Source of the DNA: a virus
Direction: 5' to 3' (one strand)
Virus record (IMG/VR): IMGVR_UViG_3300020172_001010
Span: 1-30,831 of that record
DNA length: 30,831 bases
Of this stretch, positions 10,184 to 30,831 are shown in pieces. The translations under genes and the position numbers were made by a program. The notes under the pieces were generated by a model. The model was not told the origin of the DNA. It saw nothing but the letters and a program-made list of their open reading frames with translations, and made no database searches. How positions within the stretch are numbered: position 1 is the first letter of the stretch; every line of letters begins with the position of its first letter.

Positions 10184-10199
10184 GCCCCTTAAGTGGGGC
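10184..10199 (+). other. GC-rich hairpin between genes
   Basis: GCCCC (10184-10188) and GGGGC (10195-10199) with a 6-base loop, the most GC-rich stretch nearby. No U-run follows, so it is not a standard terminator. It lies 14 bases before the ATG at 10214 and may affect RNA stability or translation. Confidence 0.5.
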
Positions 10200-10213
10200 A
10201 TAACCTTAAACAA

Positions 10214-10408
10214 ATGAAAACACAATTAGAACTAATTAAAAACCACCTTGAAATATACGGGAATATAACAAGTTGGGAAGCAATCCAACATTACAGGATA
10301 ACAAGACTTGCTCATTATATCCACGTTTTACGAAATGAGGGTAAAATAATAATAAGCGAAAGAGTAGAAAGTAACGGAAAGAATTTTGTAAACTATAAAT
10401 TAAACTAA
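10214..10408 (+). CDS. Helix-turn-helix protein (HTH_39-like), 64 aa
   Basis: 64 residues from the ATG at 10214; the GTG at 10193 lies inside the hairpin stem region and is rejected. Pattern MKTQLELIKNHLEIYGNITSWEAIQHYRITRLAHYIHVLRNEG then KNFVNYKLN matches the short phage winged-helix family HTH_39. It probably binds DNA or acts as a small regulator. Followed by the DnaA-like gene with a TAATG junction. It is one candidate to recognise the A or B palindromes. Confidence 0.75.
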   Translation: MKTQLELIKNHLEIYGNITSWEAIQHYRITRLAHYIHVLRNEGKIIISERVESNGKNFVNYKLN

Positions 10409-10839
10409 TGTATATAAACGCAGATGAACTCTTTAAACTGGTAGGAATAACACCAACTAAAGAGGCAGTAAACCTTATCAATGATAGGTTTTACATTAGG
10501 AATAAGATTGTCCAATTACATTCGGTAGAATCAATTATAGATATCATCACGGAGGTTGCAAAGGTAAATGGATTATCGTACACGGAGGTAAAGAATAACT
10601 GCCGAAAACGTATAGTAGTAGATACACGAGCAGAAGCAACCTATGTATTAAACCTTTTAGGTTTCAGGGATTGCGAAATTAGGCGAGTATTTGGGAAAGA
10701 CCATTCTACTATCAACTATTACCGAGATAGAATAAAAGACCAAATGAGTATTGATTCAAGATATAAGGTAAGTTTTTACAATAGATACTGCCATATTTTA
10801 GAACGATTCCAAATAGCAAATAATTTGAATATGAATTGA
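10408..10839 (+). CDS. DnaA domain IV-like DNA-binding protein
   Basis: 143 residues. Residues 66-112 (RKRIVVDTRAEATYVLNLLGFRDCEIRRVFGKDHSTINYYRDRIK) match the C-terminal domain of DnaA, including the signature GxDHST (96-101) that reads the DnaA box. The AAA+ ATPase domain is absent. The N-terminal 50 residues are separate and unrecognised. The protein may bind DnaA-box-like sites to start phage replication or recruit host factors. Palindrome A5 lies in its last codons (about 130-136) as a promoter for the next operon. Confidence 0.75.
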   Translation: MYINADELFKLVGITPTKEAVNLINDRFYIRNKIVQLHSVESIIDIITEVAKVNGLSYTEVKNNCRKRIVVDTRAEATYVLNLLGFRDCEIRRVFGKDHSTINYYRDRIKDQMSIDSRYKVSFYNRYCHILERFQIANNLNMN

Positions 10840-14290: not shown

Positions 14291-14321
14291 TTGCGTAAAT
14301 AAAAGTAATTATGTACCTTTG
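14291..14321 (+). promoter_or_regulatory. Terminase promoter
   Basis: TTG (14291-14293), 20 bases, TACCTTTG (14314-14321). Both boxes match consensus and no palindrome is attached. Leader of about 23 bases to the ATG at 14350, with a purine-rich TAAGGCGAAATAGGGA. Confidence 0.65.
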
Positions 14322-16016: not shown

Positions 16017-16047
16017 TTGTTTATTGCTAAAAGTTTTAGTATTTTTG
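16017..16047 (+). promoter_or_regulatory. Late promoter with palindrome B1 (portal)
   Basis: TTG (16017-16019), 20-base spacer containing CTAAAA-G-TTTTAG (16027-16039), TATTTTTG (16040-16047). The palindrome ends directly at the -7 box. Leader of about 12 bases to the ATG at 16065. Confidence 0.72.
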
Positions 16048-18180: not shown

Positions 18181-18608
18181 AAGTTCAAGGAGTAACAACG
18201 GTAACAAATGCGATAAAACGCAAAGGTAAGGCTATTGAGGATGGTGTAAAGATGAACGTGGAGAAGTACGGAGCATTAATAGCAGCACAAGCACAAGGTA
18301 ATTTACCAAGTGCAACGTGGGCAGATATTAGAATTGACCATAACCCAACAAAAGCAGGCTTATCATATATTATTCAAGCGAGAGATGGAGCAAGTGGAGA
18401 GTTTGCAGCATACTTTGAATTTGGAACTGGAAAAAGTTATTTACAAATGCAAGGCAGCTACACCCCTGAAATGAAACGAATAGCGACAACTTATTATAAG
18501 ACAGGTAAAGGAACAATCAAAGCACACCCATACTTATTCCCTGCTTATTACAAGTATAGAAAAGAGTTTATAAAGGCAATTAGTCAGTTAGTTAAAAAAG
18601 TTGTTTAA
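18177..18608 (+). CDS. HK97 gp10-like head-tail/tail-completion protein
   Basis: 143 residues. Signature segments of the HK97 gp10/SPP1 gp16.1-like family: AQAQGNLPSATWADI, SGEFAAYFEFGTG (about 77-89) and KAHPYLFPAYYKYRKEF (about 117-133). These proteins form the last tail ring or tail terminator/completion complex. Its stop codon overlaps the stop of the reverse-strand gene at 18605, with no terminator between the convergent units. Confidence 0.82.
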   Translation: MKVQGVTTVTNAIKRKGKAIEDGVKMNVEKYGALIAAQAQGNLPSATWADIRIDHNPTKAGLSYIIQARDGASGEFAAYFEFGTGKSYLQMQGSYTPEMKRIATTYYKTGKGTIKAHPYLFPAYYKYRKEFIKAISQLVKKVV

Positions 18609-19210
18609 ATCTTTGCTTTTACTTCTATTTGAAGAATAGTTATAAATAACTCATTAAGCATTAATTCTCTTTCTTTCTCATTCCAACACTTATCAATTCG
18701 TTTAGTTAATGCTATTATAGTATCATACTTAAACTTACTTGCTTTACTTTTTACATTGTAGTTTACATAATCTCTTATTACTCTCAATGTATTAGGTCTT
18801 AAATCATCAATATAACCATTATCTAATCTAATCATATCAATAGCATCAATAATGTTAATATAAGTAAATATTTTAGGTGATGAGCATAAATAAGCTACTA
18901 CATTCTTATCAGATAGGTTGTTACCTCTACTTCTATCGCAATAATTAGTATTGTATAGTTTAATATATTCACCAAATATTGGTAATAATATTTCCTCTAT
19001 ATGAAAGTCTGTTAAATATGAGTTCTTGTGCTTATGATTATATTCTGCAACTTTTAGCCTTAAATACTCATTACATATAGATAGTTTAATATAGCAACCA
19101 TTAACATAATCAGTAAGCAGATAATATCTTTTTAAGCATCTTTCATCTTCAATACCATTAGAAAACACACAACCACAATGATTGTGTGTTATTTCTTTAA
19201 AAGTACCCAT
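18605..19210 (-). CDS. Unknown protein of reverse-strand cassette, 201 aa
   Basis: MGTFKEITHNHCGCVFSNG... with His9, His11, Cys12, Cys14 and Cys24 grouped at the N-terminus, possibly a metal site. The rest is helical with no recognised motif (ELMLNELFITILQIEVKAKI at the end). Second gene of a two-gene unit that points against the late genes and is coupled to the first by TAATG. A late-operon insertion of this sort (a moron) often carries host-changing, exclusion or anti-defence functions. I do not recognise its family, and the function is open. Confidence 0.65.
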   Translation of the reverse strand: MGTFKEITHNHCGCVFSNGIEDERCLKRYYLLTDYVNGCYIKLSICNEYLRLKVAEYNHKHKNSYLTDFHIEEILLPIFGEYIKLYNTNYCDRSRGNNLSDKNVVAYLCSSPKIFTYINIIDAIDMIRLDNGYIDDLRPNTLRVIRDYVNYNVKSKASKFKYDTIIALTKRIDKCWNEKERELMLNELFITILQIEVKAKI

Positions 19211-19449
19211 TAGTCTACTATTTTGGTTTCTGCTTCTCTTAATTCAATATCAGAGTTAAAATTAGCATTATGTTGCTCAATTTCAATTCTTACTTTAGCC
19301 CTATCTAACTCGTATTTTAATGAGTTATTAACTTGTTTAGCAAGGTCTGATTGAGCCTTTGCTTTTTCCACACTAATAACATCGTTATCTAACTTATCCA
19401 TTTGGTCGAATAAGAAGTGGATTAATGATTTGTTGTTTACTGGTCTCAT
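19210..19449 (-). CDS. Small coiled-coil protein of reverse-strand cassette, 79 aa
   Basis: MRPVNNKSLIHFLFDQMDKL..., start at the ATG at 19449; an in-frame ATG 14 codons upstream falls in the leader after the -7 box and is less likely. The second half is a strong coiled coil (AQSDLAKQVNNSLKYELDRAKVRIEIEQHNANFNSDIELREAETK). Short proteins beginning MRPVN-K-SLI-FL are, as I recall, widespread in Bacteroidota phages and mobile elements, often as unknown small genes. First gene of the cassette controlled by A4. Confidence 0.65.
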   Translation of the reverse strand: MRPVNNKSLIHFLFDQMDKLDNDVISVEKAKAQSDLAKQVNNSLKYELDRAKVRIEIEQHNANFNSDIELREAETKIVD

Positions 19450-19473
19450 AATGTTTATTTTTTGATTTAAGCC

Positions 19474-19535
19474 CAAATTTAATATTATCAATAATACCTT
19501 GTATAAACTATTTTCAATTTAGAACGATTCTAAAT
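19474..19535 (-). promoter_or_regulatory. Palindrome A4 and reverse-strand promoter
   Basis: ATTTAGAACGATTCTAAAT (19517-19535, perfect arms). On the reverse strand a TAAATTTG -7 box (19481 to 19474) starts 36 bases beyond the palindrome, the same geometry as A1-A3. The -33 position reads ATA, not TTG. It drives the 19449-18605 cassette with a leader of about 25 bases. The palindrome is shared with the divergent late promoter B2. Confidence 0.65.
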
Positions 19536-19542
19536 CATAATT

Positions 19543-19573
19543 TTGAATATTGCTAAAATTTTTAGTATTTTTG
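19543..19573 (+). promoter_or_regulatory. Late promoter with palindrome B2 (tail genes)
   Basis: TTG (19543-19545), 20-base spacer with CTAAAA-T-TTTTAG (19553-19565), TATTTTTG (19566-19573). Identical architecture to B1. The ATG at 19578 is four bases after the box, predicting a leaderless message. A4 sits 7 bases upstream of TTG. Confidence 0.75.
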
Positions 19574-25304: not shown

Positions 25305-25335
25305 TTGTAAAATGCTAAAAATATTAGTATTTTTG
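25305..25335 (+). promoter_or_regulatory. Late promoter with palindrome B3 (protease-capsid)
   Basis: TTG (25305-25307), 20-base spacer with CTAAAAATATTAG (25315-25327; 5 of 6 arm pairs), TATTTTTG (25328-25335). The leader holds AAAGGAG ending two bases before the ATG at 25351, unusually close for a ribosome site. Confidence 0.7.
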
Positions 25336-25350
25336 TGTAAATAAAGGAGT

Positions 25351-26049
25351 ATGCAGTTTAAACAAGTATCACACGAGATAAAAGAGTTAGATGATGCCAA
25401 AGGTATTGTTGTGGCTTATGCAAGTGTTTACAATAACATAGATGCTGATAAGGAAAGAATCGTACAAGGTGCTTTCACAAAGACTATACAAGAGAATCAG
25501 AAACGTATCAGAGTACTAAAAGACCATAACCCAACAATAGGGTTAGGAGTGCCTTTAGAGATTAATGGTAATGACCCTTACGGATTACTTACTACTACTC
25601 AATTTAACCTTAAAAAAGAGGTTTCGAGAGATATGTACGAAGATATTAAGTTATTCCTTGCGAATGGCTTAAATGCTGAATTAAGTATCGGATTTCAAAC
25701 AATTAAGAGCATCGAAGAACAAACAGACGAGGAAAATGAAGTAGAAACGATTACAGAGGTTAAACTTTGGGAATACTCGTTTTTATCGAATTGGGCAGCG
25801 AATGATAGAGCAATCGTTCAAGATGTAAAGAATAAAAAACAGAGTGCTATGGATTTATTGGTAAGTATGTACAATTTACCTTATTCAGATAGCCGATTAA
25901 AAGCAGTAGAATCATTACTATTATCACTTGAAAATGAGCCGTTAGAAGCTAACACTCCAATTTTAGAGCCGATAAATGAAACGGATGCACAAGCAAAAGA
26001 ATTATTTAACTATTTATTATTAAAAGGAGTATTAAAAAATGGAAATTAA
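25351..26049 (+). CDS. Prohead protease (HK97 gp4-like, S78)
   Basis: 232 residues. Catalytic His59 (KDHNP), Ser112 (ELSIGF) and Glu141 (LWEYSFL) appear with spacing close to HK97 gp4 (His65, Ser115, Glu148). The enzyme cleaves the scaffold part of the capsid protein inside the prohead. It is the first gene after B3 and overlaps the capsid gene by 11 bases. The C-terminal 60 residues are low in motif content and probably target the protease for incorporation. Confidence 0.88.
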   Translation: MQFKQVSHEIKELDDAKGIVVAYASVYNNIDADKERIVQGAFTKTIQENQKRIRVLKDHNPTIGLGVPLEINGNDPYGLLTTTQFNLKKEVSRDMYEDIKLFLANGLNAELSIGFQTIKSIEEQTDEENEVETITEVKLWEYSFLSNWAANDRAIVQDVKNKKQSAMDLLVSMYNLPYSDSRLKAVESLLLSLENEPLEANTPILEPINETDAQAKELFNYLLLKGVLKNGN

Positions 26050-27187
26050 AGACGTAGTTGATGCAGTAGCATCACAAATCGAAACGAAGTCAGTAGAGTT
26101 CGATTCAAAAGTAAACGCAGTTAAGACTGACGTTAACGCAAAATTAGAAGAAAAATCAGTAGAGATTGAAAACCTTAAAGGTCAAATCACTAAAATTACT
26201 GAAAGAGCAGATGAGTTAGATGCTTTAGTTGCTAAAGGTAAATCTACTAAAGTAGAAACTAAATCTTTTGGCGAAGCATTAGCAGACGCTGCTGACAATG
26301 AAATGGGTAACATCGAAAAGGCGTTAAAGTCGCAAGGTGGTTCTCATACAATCCAATTAAAAACAGTAGGTAATATGTTACTTTCATCTTCATTAACTGG
26401 AGATTCAGTAGCAAGTTACTCTAATCGTCAAGCAATTTTACCTGCACAAGCATTGAACTTTAGAGATTTAGTTCCTTCAGTTTCGAGTGCAACAGGTACT
26501 TATGTACAATATCGTGAAACTGGTTCAGAGGGTTCTATTTCTGCTCAAACAGAGGGTTCTTCTAAAACACAAATTGACTACGATTTAACAGAGGTTAAGA
26601 CCGTAAACGCATACATTGCAGGTTACGCTACTTACTCAAAACAATTTGCTAAATCATTACCTTTTATGCAAGGTACATTGTCAAGAATGTTGTTAAGAGA
26701 TTTCTTCAAAGCAGAGAACGCTTCTTTCTTCTCAACTGTTTCAGGTGCTGCAACTGGTGTTACAACTATGACTGCAACTAATGATGTTGAGCAAATTGTT
26801 GAGTTAATTGCAAACACTAAAAATGCAAACTATAACGCATCATTCGCTTTAGTTAGCCCATCACAAATGGCACGTTTAATTATCGCTACATTTGCTAAAG
26901 GTTACTACGCAGGTGCAGGTGCTATTATCTTAAATGGTGCAGGTGGTGTTACAATTTGGGGTACTCCAGTATTAGAGGCTTCTTGGGTAACTGATGACAA
27001 AGTATTAATCATCGACAGAGATTTCATCGAAAGAGTTGAAGTTGAAGGATTAAATGTAACATTCTCTTACGAAAATGGAACTAATTTTGTACAAAACCTC
27101 GTAACGGCCCGCGTTGAATGTTACGAAAATATAAACCTCATGATGCCAGCATCAGCGATATATGCTGACCTTGGGAATGTCATCTAA
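26039..27187 (+). CDS. Major capsid protein (HK97 fold)
   Basis: 382 residues. The N-terminal about 95 residues are a charged coiled coil (ASQIETKSVEFDSKVNAVKTDVNAKLEEKSVEIENLKGQ), the delta/scaffold domain to be removed by the protease. From about 130 on comes the HK97 capsid fold (SNRQAILPAQALNFRDLVPSVSSATGTYVQYRE; FALVSPSQMARLIIATFAKG; VWGTPVLEASWVTDDKVLI-type end). The last 27 codons use unusual codons (CTC, GCC CGC, GTC ATC) in contrast with the TTA/AGA/GCA-rich rest. A strong terminator follows, which would favour high expression of this unit alone. Confidence 0.92.
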   Translation: MEIKDVVDAVASQIETKSVEFDSKVNAVKTDVNAKLEEKSVEIENLKGQITKITERADELDALVAKGKSTKVETKSFGEALADAADNEMGNIEKALKSQGGSHTIQLKTVGNMLLSSSLTGDSVASYSNRQAILPAQALNFRDLVPSVSSATGTYVQYRETGSEGSISAQTEGSSKTQIDYDLTEVKTVNAYIAGYATYSKQFAKSLPFMQGTLSRMLLRDFFKAENASFFSTVSGAATGVTTMTATNDVEQIVELIANTKNANYNASFALVSPSQMARLIIATFAKGYYAGAGAIILNGAGGVTIWGTPVLEASWVTDDKVLIIDRDFIERVEVEGLNVTFSYENGTNFVQNLVTARVECYENINLMMPASAIYADLGNVI

Positions 27188-27301: not shown

Positions 27302-27919
27302 ATGATAGGGATATATAAAATCACTTCTCCAAGTGGTAGAATCTATATAGGTCAAAGTATAGATATAAATAAAAGGTTTAGAAAGTATTATAATCTTAAA
27401 TGTACCCAACAACCTAAACTATATCACTCACTATGTAAGTACGGAGTAGATGCTCATAAATTCGAGGTTATTGAAGAATGTACACAAGAGCAATTAAACA
27501 ATAGAGAAAGGTATTACCAAGAGTTTTTTAATTCAGTAGAAACTGGTCTAAATTTACTTTATGTAAAATCAGAGCATTTTAATGGTAGGCATAGTGAAGA
27601 AAGTAAAAAGAAAATTAGTGATGGGTTAAAAGGTAAGCCAATTCACGAAAATACAAGATTAGCACTTATAGAATCAAATAAGAATAGGGTAATATCAGAA
27701 GCGACAAAAGAGAAACATAGAATAAACGGAACTGGTAAAAAGGCATCAGAAGAAACCAAAGAAAAACAACGACTAAAGAGATTAGGCAGTAAGCGTTCCG
27801 AAGAAACAAAACGCAAAATGTCTGAATCTGCAAAAAGAGTAATTAAAAAGCCTATTAGCGAAGAAACTCGTATTAAAATGTCAATAGCACAATTAAAGAG
27901 GTTTTCTAAAGAATACTAA
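27302..27919 (+). CDS. GIY-YIG homing endonuclease with NUMOD3 repeats
   Basis: 205 residues. GIY (3-5) and YIG (15-17), Arg25 (INKRFRK) and Glu69 (NNRERYY) are the catalytic elements of GIY-YIG nucleases. The C-terminal half is a run of NUMOD3 DNA-binding modules (HSEESKKKISDGLKGK; SEATKEKHRINGTGKK; SEETKEKQRLKRLGSK; SEETKRKMSESAKR; SEETRIKMSIAQLKR). It stands between the capsid terminator and the 27951 operon, with its own promoter. The nearest edge of the capsid gene is altered in codon use, which suggests the intended cutting site or a transferred flank. Confidence 0.92.
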   Translation: MIGIYKITSPSGRIYIGQSIDINKRFRKYYNLKCTQQPKLYHSLCKYGVDAHKFEVIEECTQEQLNNRERYYQEFFNSVETGLNLLYVKSEHFNGRHSEESKKKISDGLKGKPIHENTRLALIESNKNRVISEATKEKHRINGTGKKASEETKEKQRLKRLGSKRSEETKRKMSESAKRVIKKPISEETRIKMSIAQLKRFSKEY

Positions 27920-27946
27920 AACTTTTAGCAATTATTTGTATATTTG
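27916..27946 (+). promoter_or_regulatory. Promoter with palindrome B4
   Basis: CTAAAA-C-TTTTAG (27916-27928) and TATATTTG (27939-27946); ATG at 27951 four bases later. Unlike B1-B3, the palindrome ends 10 bases before the -7 box and there is no TTG at -33, so the geometry differs. The palindrome overlaps the stop codon of the endonuclease gene. Confidence 0.5.
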
Positions 27947-27950
27947 TATT

Positions 27951-28175
27951 ATGAAAGTTATATCAAAAATGGACTTTATCCACGATGGCGATAGGTTCAG
28001 AAGAGGGTTTACTTATGAAGTAAAATCAACACCTAAAATACTTGAATTTGTAAAGGTAGGCTACTTGAAAGAGGTTGAAGAAGTTATTGAAGAAATTAAA
28101 GAAGAAGTAACCGAAAAAGAACTTAAAGAGGTAAAGAAAACAAAGGAGTTTAAAGGCAAAGTTAAAACCAAATGA
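27951..28175 (+). CDS. Small head-region protein, 74 aa
   Basis: MKVISKMDFIHDGDRFRRGFTYEVKSTPKILEFVKVGYLKEVE..., from the ATG at 27951; a TTG 5 codons upstream lies in the promoter. The first 45 residues resemble small phage proteins found between capsid and connector genes (pattern F..dG..y..G....v......l...Gyl.ev). The tail is highly charged (EEIKEEVTEKELKEVKKTKEF). Function unknown; possibly a head accessory protein. Confidence 0.65.
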   Translation: MKVISKMDFIHDGDRFRRGFTYEVKSTPKILEFVKVGYLKEVEEVIEEIKEEVTEKELKEVKKTKEFKGKVKTK

Positions 28176-29449
28176 TAAAGACCGAAGCATATAACGATAG
28201 TTTGCAATTTTTAAGCCTTACAAAGAAGAACGGAGTAGGTGTTAATACTTTGTACTCAATGAAGCCGACTAATGCAACTGGGGACTTTATTTGGGGTCGT
28301 GCTTTAGATTCTTATCGTTTAAACGCTTCAGGGGTTTTAGAATCAGTTGCAAGTGGTGTACCTCGAATAGATTACACGAATACCTGCCCTGAATTACTTA
28401 TAGAGGGAGCGAGAACAAACATAGATAAGCAAAGCCAAAATTTAAGCAATGCAACGTGGACTAAAACGACCACAACGGTATCAAGTACGGAGGTTGCTCC
28501 CGATGGAACAAGTACGGCTTATTCAATGAGCGATACTTCTGCTGCTGCTTTTCAGTACTTTTCACAAACGATTACTTATACGACTTCAAGTGTTTATACA
28601 AGGTCTTACTATATAAAAAAAGCATCAAGTGCGTTGACTTATTGGAGCGGAATAGATATTGTTTCAGGGGCAAACTATGTAAGGTGTATTTTTAATAATT
28701 ACAATGGTACTTATGTAACTGCGACTGGAGGAACGGCAGTTTTAGTAGGTGTTAAAGTTTACGATGTTAACGGATACTACCGACTATGTATAACTTATCA
28801 GTTTGTTAGTGGTACTTCTTCGACTTTTTATGTTTATCCTGCATTGTCAAGTAACGGAACAAGTACGAGTGTTGCTGCAATGGGTGCAAATACATTTTGG
28901 GGATTTCAAAACGAATTAGGATATAATGCGACAAGCTACATACCAACGACAACGGCAAGTGTAACACGACCTGCTGACATTGGCTATAATTCTACAATAG
29001 CATACGGCTTAAAAGGTACTATTTTTATTCGAGCAAGGATATTTAGTTCGAATTATACAAAGGTTGATACTTTATTTAGTTTGACCGATGGGACTTTAGA
29101 TGATTATATCACTTGTTCGACAAATTCGAGTAGGTCAATATTTATAGAAACTTTAGGAGGTGGAGCAGATTTAAACGCTTATAATTATTCTTTGGCGAGT
29201 GATGGGATTTACTCTATAGCTATTGGTTATGATTTTACAGGTGTAAATAACAACCTAAACATAGTAATAAACGGAGTATTAAAAAGGGCAAATTCAGCAC
29301 AAGTAAATAACCCTCCAACTACATTAGATAGATTTGATTTAGGCAGTTTAGACGGAACATTAACACAAGTAGATAATAGAATAATAGGTCAAATGTATTT
29401 TGCAGACCAATTAAGCGATACAGATTTAACAGCATTAACAGTACAATAA
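28172..29449 (+). CDS. Fibre or decoration protein with LamG-like fold
   Basis: 425 residues, Ser/Thr/Gly-rich and beta-rich. GVPRIDYTNTCPELLIEGARTNIDKQSQN (about 63-91), followed by ...WTKTTTTVSSTEVAPDGTSTAYSMSDTS, is a pattern seen in phage fibre proteins that carry concanavalin/LamG-like domains (PxLLIExxRTN, APDGTxTA). Such domains usually bind sugars. Its place between capsid and connector genes suggests a head fibre or decoration protein rather than a tail fibre, but that is inference. ATGA and TAATG junctions to its neighbours. Confidence 0.65.
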   Translation: MIKTEAYNDSLQFLSLTKKNGVGVNTLYSMKPTNATGDFIWGRALDSYRLNASGVLESVASGVPRIDYTNTCPELLIEGARTNIDKQSQNLSNATWTKTTTTVSSTEVAPDGTSTAYSMSDTSAAAFQYFSQTITYTTSSVYTRSYYIKKASSALTYWSGIDIVSGANYVRCIFNNYNGTYVTATGGTAVLVGVKVYDVNGYYRLCITYQFVSGTSSTFYVYPALSSNGTSTSVAAMGANTFWGFQNELGYNATSYIPTTTASVTRPADIGYNSTIAYGLKGTIFIRARIFSSNYTKVDTLFSLTDGTLDDYITCSTNSSRSIFIETLGGGADLNAYNYSLASDGIYSIAIGYDFTGVNNNLNIVINGVLKRANSAQVNNPPTTLDRFDLGSLDGTLTQVDNRIIGQMYFADQLSDTDLTALTVQ

Positions 29450-29964
29450 TGGAAATTAAAATAATTACAGATTTGGCATCAGAGCCAGTTACGGTTGCAG
29501 AAGTAAGAGATTATTTAAGAATAACCACGACTGCTGAAGATACTTTATTAGGAGAATTAATAACCGATGCGAGGGAGCGATTAGAAAAGTTTACAAACCT
29601 TTCATTTGGGGCAAAGACTTTAAAGTGCAGATGGGATGTATTGGATGGGTGGGCTGAAATTCCCTACCAACCTAATGCAGTAATTTCTGCTTGTGTTAAT
29701 GATGCAGGTACTACATTGAGTTACGATACAAAAGGACTTGAATATAAGTACTTGTGGTGCATTAATTCTACTGGTGTTACAATAACATACACGGCTGGAT
29801 TTACAACGCTACCAAAGGCTTTAAAAGTGGCAATAATGAAAGAGGTTGCGACAAGCTACGAGAATAGGGAAAACTTTTACATAGAGGGTACTTTTAATGA
29901 GTTATCAAACGATGCAAAAAGAATGGCACAAAGTTACTCACGAAATACTATATTAGGTATATGA
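29449..29964 (+). CDS. Head-tail connector (HK97 gp6-like)
   Basis: 171 residues. VTVAEVRDYLRITTTAEDTLLGELITDARERLEKFTNLSF (17-56) is the classic gp6-like connector start (four-helix bundle), and ALKVAIMKEVATSYENRENF is the second part. The protein forms a ring below the portal. Next gene is the head-closure protein, as expected (ATGA). Confidence 0.87.
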   Translation: MEIKIITDLASEPVTVAEVRDYLRITTTAEDTLLGELITDARERLEKFTNLSFGAKTLKCRWDVLDGWAEIPYQPNAVISACVNDAGTTLSYDTKGLEYKYLWCINSTGVTITYTAGFTTLPKALKVAIMKEVATSYENRENFYIEGTFNELSNDAKRMAQSYSRNTILGI

Positions 29965-30353
29965 TAGGTAAACTTCGAGATAGGATAAGTTTAATAAACT
30001 ACTCAACTACTCCAAACGGAAGTGGTGGAACGGATGCAACGGAGCGTACTGATATTACTCTTTGGGCAAAGGTTACGCCTTTGAATGGTTCGAGGGGTGT
30101 AGATGGTGGACAAATTACACTTAATCAGGCTTATGAGATACACATTAGGTATGAAGATTACCCGCCATTGAATAAAAAAATAAGGATACAATTTGAGAAT
30201 AGAATATTAATAATACACGCTTTTCAAATAGTACAAGAAAGAAAGAAATATTTTAAGATAATAGCGATGGAGGATGCAGGGCGTGATGAGATAATTTACG
30301 ATGAGCAATTTCAGCCTATTGTTGATGAACAAGGAAACTATATAATTAAATAA
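29961..30353 (+). CDS. Head-closure / head-tail joining protein (SPP1 gp16-like)
   Basis: 130 residues. LRDRISLINYSTTPNGSGGTDATERTDITLWAKVTPLNGSRGVDGGQI and YEIHIRYED, then RILIIHAFQIVQERKKYFKIIAMED, match the PF05521-type stopper family (SPP1 gp16/HK97 gp7). It seals the packaged head until tail attachment. Gene order gp6-like then stopper is conserved in many siphoviruses. Confidence 0.86.
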   Translation: MIGKLRDRISLINYSTTPNGSGGTDATERTDITLWAKVTPLNGSRGVDGGQITLNQAYEIHIRYEDYPPLNKKIRIQFENRILIIHAFQIVQERKKYFKIIAMEDAGRDEIIYDEQFQPIVDEQGNYIIK

Positions 30354-30354
30354 T

Positions 30355-30831
30355 ATGCCAAGATTTGATGAGGGCGAAAGCCTAACGAAATTTGAATATA
30401 ATGATTTGTTAATGGCAGGGTCGCCTGATAACTTTTCAAAGATATTAGCACAAGATTTTTACGCTGAAAGTATCACATATGCAAACTTAACTACATTAGT
30501 TACTAATAGCCAATGTGTACAAGGTAAATGGTATAAGATAACTAACGCTACAAGTGCATCGTTTAACCTATTAGTACAAGCGGTAACATCTAATAAAATT
30601 AGTTGCGATGCTAAAGACCCTTTGTATCCCAATGATAAGGTAATGTATAATTTTGGCTCAAATGTTATTACTTGGAGGTGGGATACGGTTTTAAACATTA
30701 GTGCTGGTGTTGACTTTAGAAATAGCAACGAAGTTTCAATAGGCACTGGATGTTCAAATATTACAATTGGAACAAGCCCGAGTTCAATATCTATTGGTAA
30801 TAATTGTACAAATATAATTATTGGTAATGAT
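30355..30831 (+). CDS. Repeat-rich fibre protein, N-terminal part (cut by window end)
   Basis: 159 residues to the right edge without a stop. Starts MPRFDEGESLTKFEYND. After about 130 residues it enters short repeats with the pattern V/I-S-I-G-x-G-C-S-N-I-T-I-G (VSIGTGCSNITIGTSP; ISIGNNCTNIIIGND), which make beta-helix stacks in phage fibres and spikes. It probably is a receptor-binding or collar fibre. The reading frame does not join the fragment at the left edge directly. Confidence 0.68.
   Translation, partial: MPRFDEGESLTKFEYNDLLMAGSPDNFSKILAQDFYAESITYANLTTLVTNSQCVQGKWYKITNATSASFNLLVQAVTSNKISCDAKDPLYPNDKVMYNFGSNVITWRWDTVLNISAGVDFRNSNEVSIGTGCSNITIGTSPSSISIGNNCTNIIIGND

Follow-up and report, generated by a model that had tools for sequence, protein, structure and literature searches.

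Bacteroidetes possess a non-canonical LexA that joins an HTH_3 domain to a Peptidase_S24 domain, and the SOS box of this regulator, CTAA-N5-TTAG, has been validated by EMSA (Sanchez-Osuna et al. 2021, PMC8565304). In that report, the P. actiniarum regulator binds CTAA-N5-TTAG in EMSA, the dyads and the five-base spacing being essential and the letters of the spacer not, and its regulon includes dinB, ssb, parE and the regulator gene itself.

The closest precedent for a phage is GIL01 of Bacillus, in which host LexA acting with gp7 represses the promoter P1 and the late promoter P3 (PMC6182141, PMC4551915), and gp6 later activates P3 (PMC6182141). The principle of host-LexA control over a late promoter is therefore already known. 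GIL01, a tectivirus, is temperate and has a single late promoter with tandem boxes, together with the helpers gp7 and gp6. We found no report of LexA-controlled Bacteroidota phages in the literature that we searched.

Here, we describe a window of 30,831 nt, one strand of the IMG/VR record IMGVR_UViG_3300020172_001010, in which a palindrome termed motif B, CTAAAA-N-TTTTAG (CTAAAANTTTTAG), accompanies the late promoters. As in GIL01, where the promoter concerned serves capsid and lysis genes, the putative LexA boxes overlap virion-gene promoters and a CI-type phage repressor is lacking, in our case in the sense that none was detected. Unlike GIL01, the phages described here are tailed and have single boxes at four to six dispersed late promoters, the LexA would belong to a different family, and no lysogeny module was detected. 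The phage boxes also differ from those of PMC8565304 in that they lie in virion-gene promoters, a use that the accessible part of that report does not mention and that is predicted here from sequence.

Results

Motif B at the late promoters of the window

The window carries four copies of motif B (Table 1), and the functions of the operons were assigned with Pfam and PHROGs. Three copies match the full palindrome exactly (16027, 19553 and 27916), against 0.03 expected from dinucleotide shuffles of the window, and at least three exact copies were reached in 0 of 100 such shuffles; the copy at 25315-25327, CTAAAAATATTAG, has one mismatch. The first-pass annotation had described a palindrome abutting the late promoters, with TTG exactly 20 bases upstream of three -7 boxes and a different spacing at copy 4, and all of this was borne out. 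The three TATTTTTG boxes (16040-16047, 19566-19573 and 25328-25335) are each adjoined by motif B, and TTG lies exactly 20 bases 5' of each, at 16017, 19543 and 25305. If the -7 box is taken as -12 to -5, box 1 is centred at about -19. Copy 4, which shares a 21-base stretch with copy 1 when read on the minus strand, ends 10 bp, or one helical turn, before the TATATTTG -7 box rather than 0 bp; the gap is also 10 bp in the nearest relative and 0 bp in more distant ones (CTAAAAGTTTTAG-TATATTTG). The predicted early promoters of the window are free of the box. Frequent occurrence of the palindrome away from promoters had been named as evidence against its role, and the window holds two further CTAA-N5-TTAG sites, both intragenic, close to the 1.24 expected by chance.

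Table 1. Promoters and CTAA-N5-TTAG sites in the window.
Feature	Position	Strand	Genes or context	Sequence or remark
Late promoter	16017-16047	+	portal, MuF-like and neck genes	TTG, 20-base spacer, TATTTTTG
Late promoter	19543-19573	+	tail terminator, major tail protein and tape-measure operon	
Late promoter	25305-25335	+	prohead protease (25351-26049) and major capsid protein (26039-27187)	
-7 box	27939-27946	+	head-tail connector operon (27951-30353)	TATATTTG
Predicted promoter	14291-14321	+	terminase genes	no SOS box (contrast)
Motif B copy 1, SOS/LexA-type box	16027-16039		portal promoter	CTAA-AAGTT-TTAG
Motif B copy 2, SOS/LexA-type box	19553-19565		tail promoter	CTAA-AATTT-TTAG
Motif B copy 3, SOS/LexA-type box	25315-25327		protease-capsid promoter	CTAA-AAATA-TTAG
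Motif B copy 4, SOS/LexA-type box	27916-27928		10 bp 5' of connector -7 box	CTAA-AACTT-TTAG
CTAA-N5-TTAG	27773-27785		within GIY-YIG gene, no promoter	taken as chance match
CTAA-N5-TTAG	30590-30602		within 3'-terminal ORF, no promoter	taken as chance match

A GIY-YIG/NUMOD3 homing-endonuclease gene (27302-27919) lies directly 5' of the connector promoter, with its stop codon inside SOS box 4. Both the window and its sibling G021 have a GIY-YIG gene at this place and a connector box 10 bp further from the -7 box; in G025 and L021 the box is without this shift, and the gene was not matched there. Two minus-strand ORFs (201 and 93 aa; 18605-19491) without a family match stand between the portal and tail operons. 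The window is cut at its 3' end (30355-30831) within a fibre-like open frame, at least 159 aa long, and its 5' end (1-130) likewise falls within an open frame. The contig may therefore represent an almost complete genome in permuted form.

Correspondence with the Bacteroidota SOS box

Judged by its sequence, motif B is CTAA-N5-TTAG, the SOS box to which the Bacteroidota non-canonical LexA, with its CI-type HTH and S24 peptidase, binds. It shows the properties published for that box (PMC8565304): exact dyads, a spacing of exactly five bases and free spacer letters, which at phage promoters read AAGTT, AATTT, AAATA, TAATT, AAAAA, GATTT and others. The dyads of the CTAA-N5-TTAG core are exact in all four window copies, including the one with a mismatch to the longer palindrome; with CTAA-N5-TTAG as the predicted functional core, copy 3 is not degenerate in the relevant sense.

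We scanned the genomes of 84,980 bacterial and archaeal species for the box followed by TAnnTTTG. Many of the composite matches outside Bacteroidota look like chance matches in AT-rich genomes. On Bacteroidota chromosomes, the composite recurs before lexA-like genes (HTH_3 and Peptidase_S24), dinB (PF00817), ssb (PF00436) and parE (PF00204). The box stands directly before TAnnTTTG as in the phages, and the two gaps to the -7 box that the phages use, 0 and 10, are also those of these host promoters. LexA-like proteins, whose sequences display the Ala-Gly motif and the Ser...Lys pattern, are encoded in 18 of the 20 genomes with such composites, and several of their genes have CTAA-N5-TTAG upstream of themselves; the 13-mer of window copy 3 occurs identically upstream of a Lutibacter lexA-like gene. 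Whole-genome counts of a 17-bp box exceeded the backwards control in only two of four host genomes, so that counts alone do not define a regulon. The CTAA-type consensus is that of Bacteroidetes LexA, and the host of these phages may carry a LexA of another type.

The composite also stands before genes for a BlaI-type regulator (Prevotella, contig L058), a MerR/B12-binding regulator (Flavobacterium, L113), a 2'-5' RNA ligase-like protein (Pedobacter, L094) and an OmpH-like protein (Muriicola, L061); these possibly represent further LexA targets, or other regulators. One more gene (L149), ImuA-like by eye but without a Pfam match, was left out of the count.

Conservation and spacing among phage relatives

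The first-pass annotation had proposed a motif scan of relatives and claimed that the operators are locked to virion-gene promoters. A scan of IMG/VR for the box with the -7 box returned 49 stretches with 56 sites, against one match for an arm-swapped control of the same letters, and about 45 of the 56 sites stand 4-31 bases 5' of a virion gene, in agreement with that claim; these downstream ORFs, like those of the divergent group, were labelled by eye from their translations and from similarity to window genes. On whole contigs, boxes precede the genes for portal, tail terminator, tail tube, protease and connector, most relative contigs being fragments, and the box is kept at virion genes although the proteins diverge to 35-60% identity. 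A relaxed scan added a more distant phage group with boxes at the same protease and connector positions and with other spacer letters (AAAAG, AAATC, AAATA and AAAAC).

Since the strict pattern favours sites at gap 0 and with an AANTT spacer, homologues were gathered by protein. In this homology-first sample, CTAA-N5-TTAG was present in all 14 distinct group-1 portal upstreams and in 27 protease upstreams, the latter always at gap 0; over portal and protease boxes together, the gap was 0 in 38 of 41 and 10-12 in the other three. The divergent group-2 portals had the box in 0 of 39 cases, and one protease promoter (L511) has lost the box and kept the -7 box. The box is therefore not indispensable everywhere, and the wiring differs between groups.

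The palindrome could be mere promoter architecture, that is, AT-rich -18 and -28 elements read by the sigma-ABfr holoenzyme and copied between late promoters. Flavobacterium johnsoniae promoters do contain AT-rich motifs centred at -18 and -28 (PMC6847099), near the two registers of the box, which at phage promoters are gap 0 (23 sites) and gap 9-11 (6 sites). This explanation is nevertheless highly improbable, as the dyads retain their C and G, the box is absent from the predicted early promoters, and near -7 boxes only the N5 spacing is used. In 189 kb from seven contigs, 29 of 39 sites with N5 spacing have a -7 box 0-12 bases downstream, compared with 3 of 83 for the other 11 spacings (N1-N12), and among 53 portal upstreams, none had CTAA and TTAG at a spacing from N1 to N11 other than N5. 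A control scan with N6 spacing retrieved a different phage family with a different set of promoters, not those of virion genes, and was set aside.

Repression or activation from the spacer

Binding in the promoter spacer had been proposed to act either by repression or by MerR-like twisting of the DNA. A dimeric protein, LexA or another, might activate late transcription by untwisting or by contact with the polymerase. Most sites have the box in the middle of the spacer, conservation of the -33 TTG is weak, as it is at activator-dependent promoters, and the authors of PMC8565304 formally leave open that these regulators activate. After removal of duplicates, only 13 of 46 promoter-like viral sites, a set that takes in some sites of unclear phage type, have TTG at spacer 20; the -33 element does not belong invariably to the composite, and the box is not always within an over-long spacer. 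A weak -33 element is, however, normal in F. johnsoniae promoters (PMC6847099), several boxes, including that at 27916, lie 9-12 bp further upstream, where the same MerR-type mechanism is not possible, and the matching regulator family is one of repressors. We therefore regard activation as very unlikely; the identity of motif B as a host LexA/SOS box favours the repression half of the earlier proposal.

Search for a phage-encoded regulator

No Peptidase_S24 or HTH_3 repressor was matched in 11 phage records, one of which (G024) has a map that is complete on the evidence of a 123-bp exact end overlap, and a tblastn search of an initial set of the phage loci with lexA-like proteins gave no match. 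A phage repressor of this type was thus set aside as the regulator, and host LexA is the simplest regulator that would fit these phages. Alternatively, a repressor encoded by the phage, CI-like or a LexA mimic, might use the box, its likeness to the host SOS box reflecting descent or convergence. According to PMC8565304, phage CI-type repressors are the presumed ancestors of the host non-canonical LexA, so that the same site could also serve a phage protein. Other types of HTH protein are encoded in the window, namely HTH_39 (10193-10408) and a DnaA-C-like protein (10408-10839), and the repressor could have a fold outside the tested families. In view of the empty searches for S24, HTH_3 and lexA-like proteins, a phage-encoded repressor seems to us unlikely, if less so than activation.

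A prophage state was also considered and gained no support from these searches. Tyrosine integrase, resolvase and ParA-type proteins were not matched in the 11 phage records, and no prophage virion gene was recognised among 112 chromosomal matches of the composite. A search for portal relatives in 395 sampled Bacteroidota genomes, run without a positive control, found none.

Discussion

We consider that host LexA probably represses all late operons of these phages and is released through the SOS response and/or because replicating genomes titrate it, a reading to which we assign a probability of about 0.75. The promoter of each of the four virion operons carries one box, which overlaps the region just 5' of the sigma-ABfr -7 element, as in the host lexA, dinB, ssb and parE promoters. 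With the -7 element running from T-12 to G-5 (PMC6847099), the box covers about -25 to -13. From this position and the known role of the family, we infer that a dimer of host LexA bound there would block promoter recognition by RNA polymerase, and that, early in infection or in a dormant state, the portal, tail, protease-capsid and connector operons would remain silent.

Three routes of release can be envisaged. RecA filaments formed during infection may trigger LexA self-cleavage, the replicating phage genomes may outnumber LexA and titrate it away, or, if a dormant carrier state exists, host DNA damage may provide the signal. The data do not choose among RecA-stimulated cleavage, titration and damage in a carrier state. 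A wider proposal, which we advance tentatively and rate slightly below an even chance, is that a lineage of apparently virulent tailed phages of Bacteroidota, without a late-gene regulator of its own, has every virion operon wired into the host SOS regulon for late timing. These operons would be switched on by RecA-dependent LexA cleavage, arising from phage replication and DNA processing, or by titration of LexA, and virion synthesis would thereby be coupled to replication. That a virulent phage would benefit from waiting for the SOS response is an argument, not a result.

Host-LexA control of the late operons would explain the palindrome and connect, in a testable way, a known host repressor with the timing of phage late genes. 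If it is true, LexA control of phages extends to Bacteroidota and to dispersed late promoters, with no evident lysogeny module, and the SOS competence of the host is suggested to affect phage yield. The signature CTAA-N5-TTAG next to TAnnTTTG before virion genes may also link metagenomic phages to hosts with a CTAA-type LexA.

Flavobacteriaceae mainly use GGA-N5-TCC as their box. The distant isolates Flavobacterium phage 11b and Cellulophaga phage phi10:1 have homologous portal and capsid proteins of about 27-32% identity, and neither CTAA-N5-TTAG nor GGA-N5-TCC was found at their virion promoters, so that an SOS box, or a switch to the flavobacterial type, was discarded for these two phages.

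A second palindrome, motif A (TTTAGA-N5-TCTAAA), occurs in the window at 1818, 4694, 8430 and 19518 and recurs in relatives. It is often followed by TTGCAAATAAT, with TTGACA about 15 bases on, upstream of early-gene promoters. By its sequence, motif A is a separate, conserved operator. The division proposed earlier, with motif B on virion promoters and motif A on early ones, stands for motif B and only partly for motif A, one copy of which lies directly 5' of the tail promoter, in the divergent region between the minus-strand ORFs and the tail operon. Finally, L305, L312, L319, L346 and others, from a phage family other than that of the window, carry TGCTAA-N6-TTAGTATATTTG in a long conserved leader that precedes early-type genes of various kinds; with its six-base spacing, this looks like a related operator.
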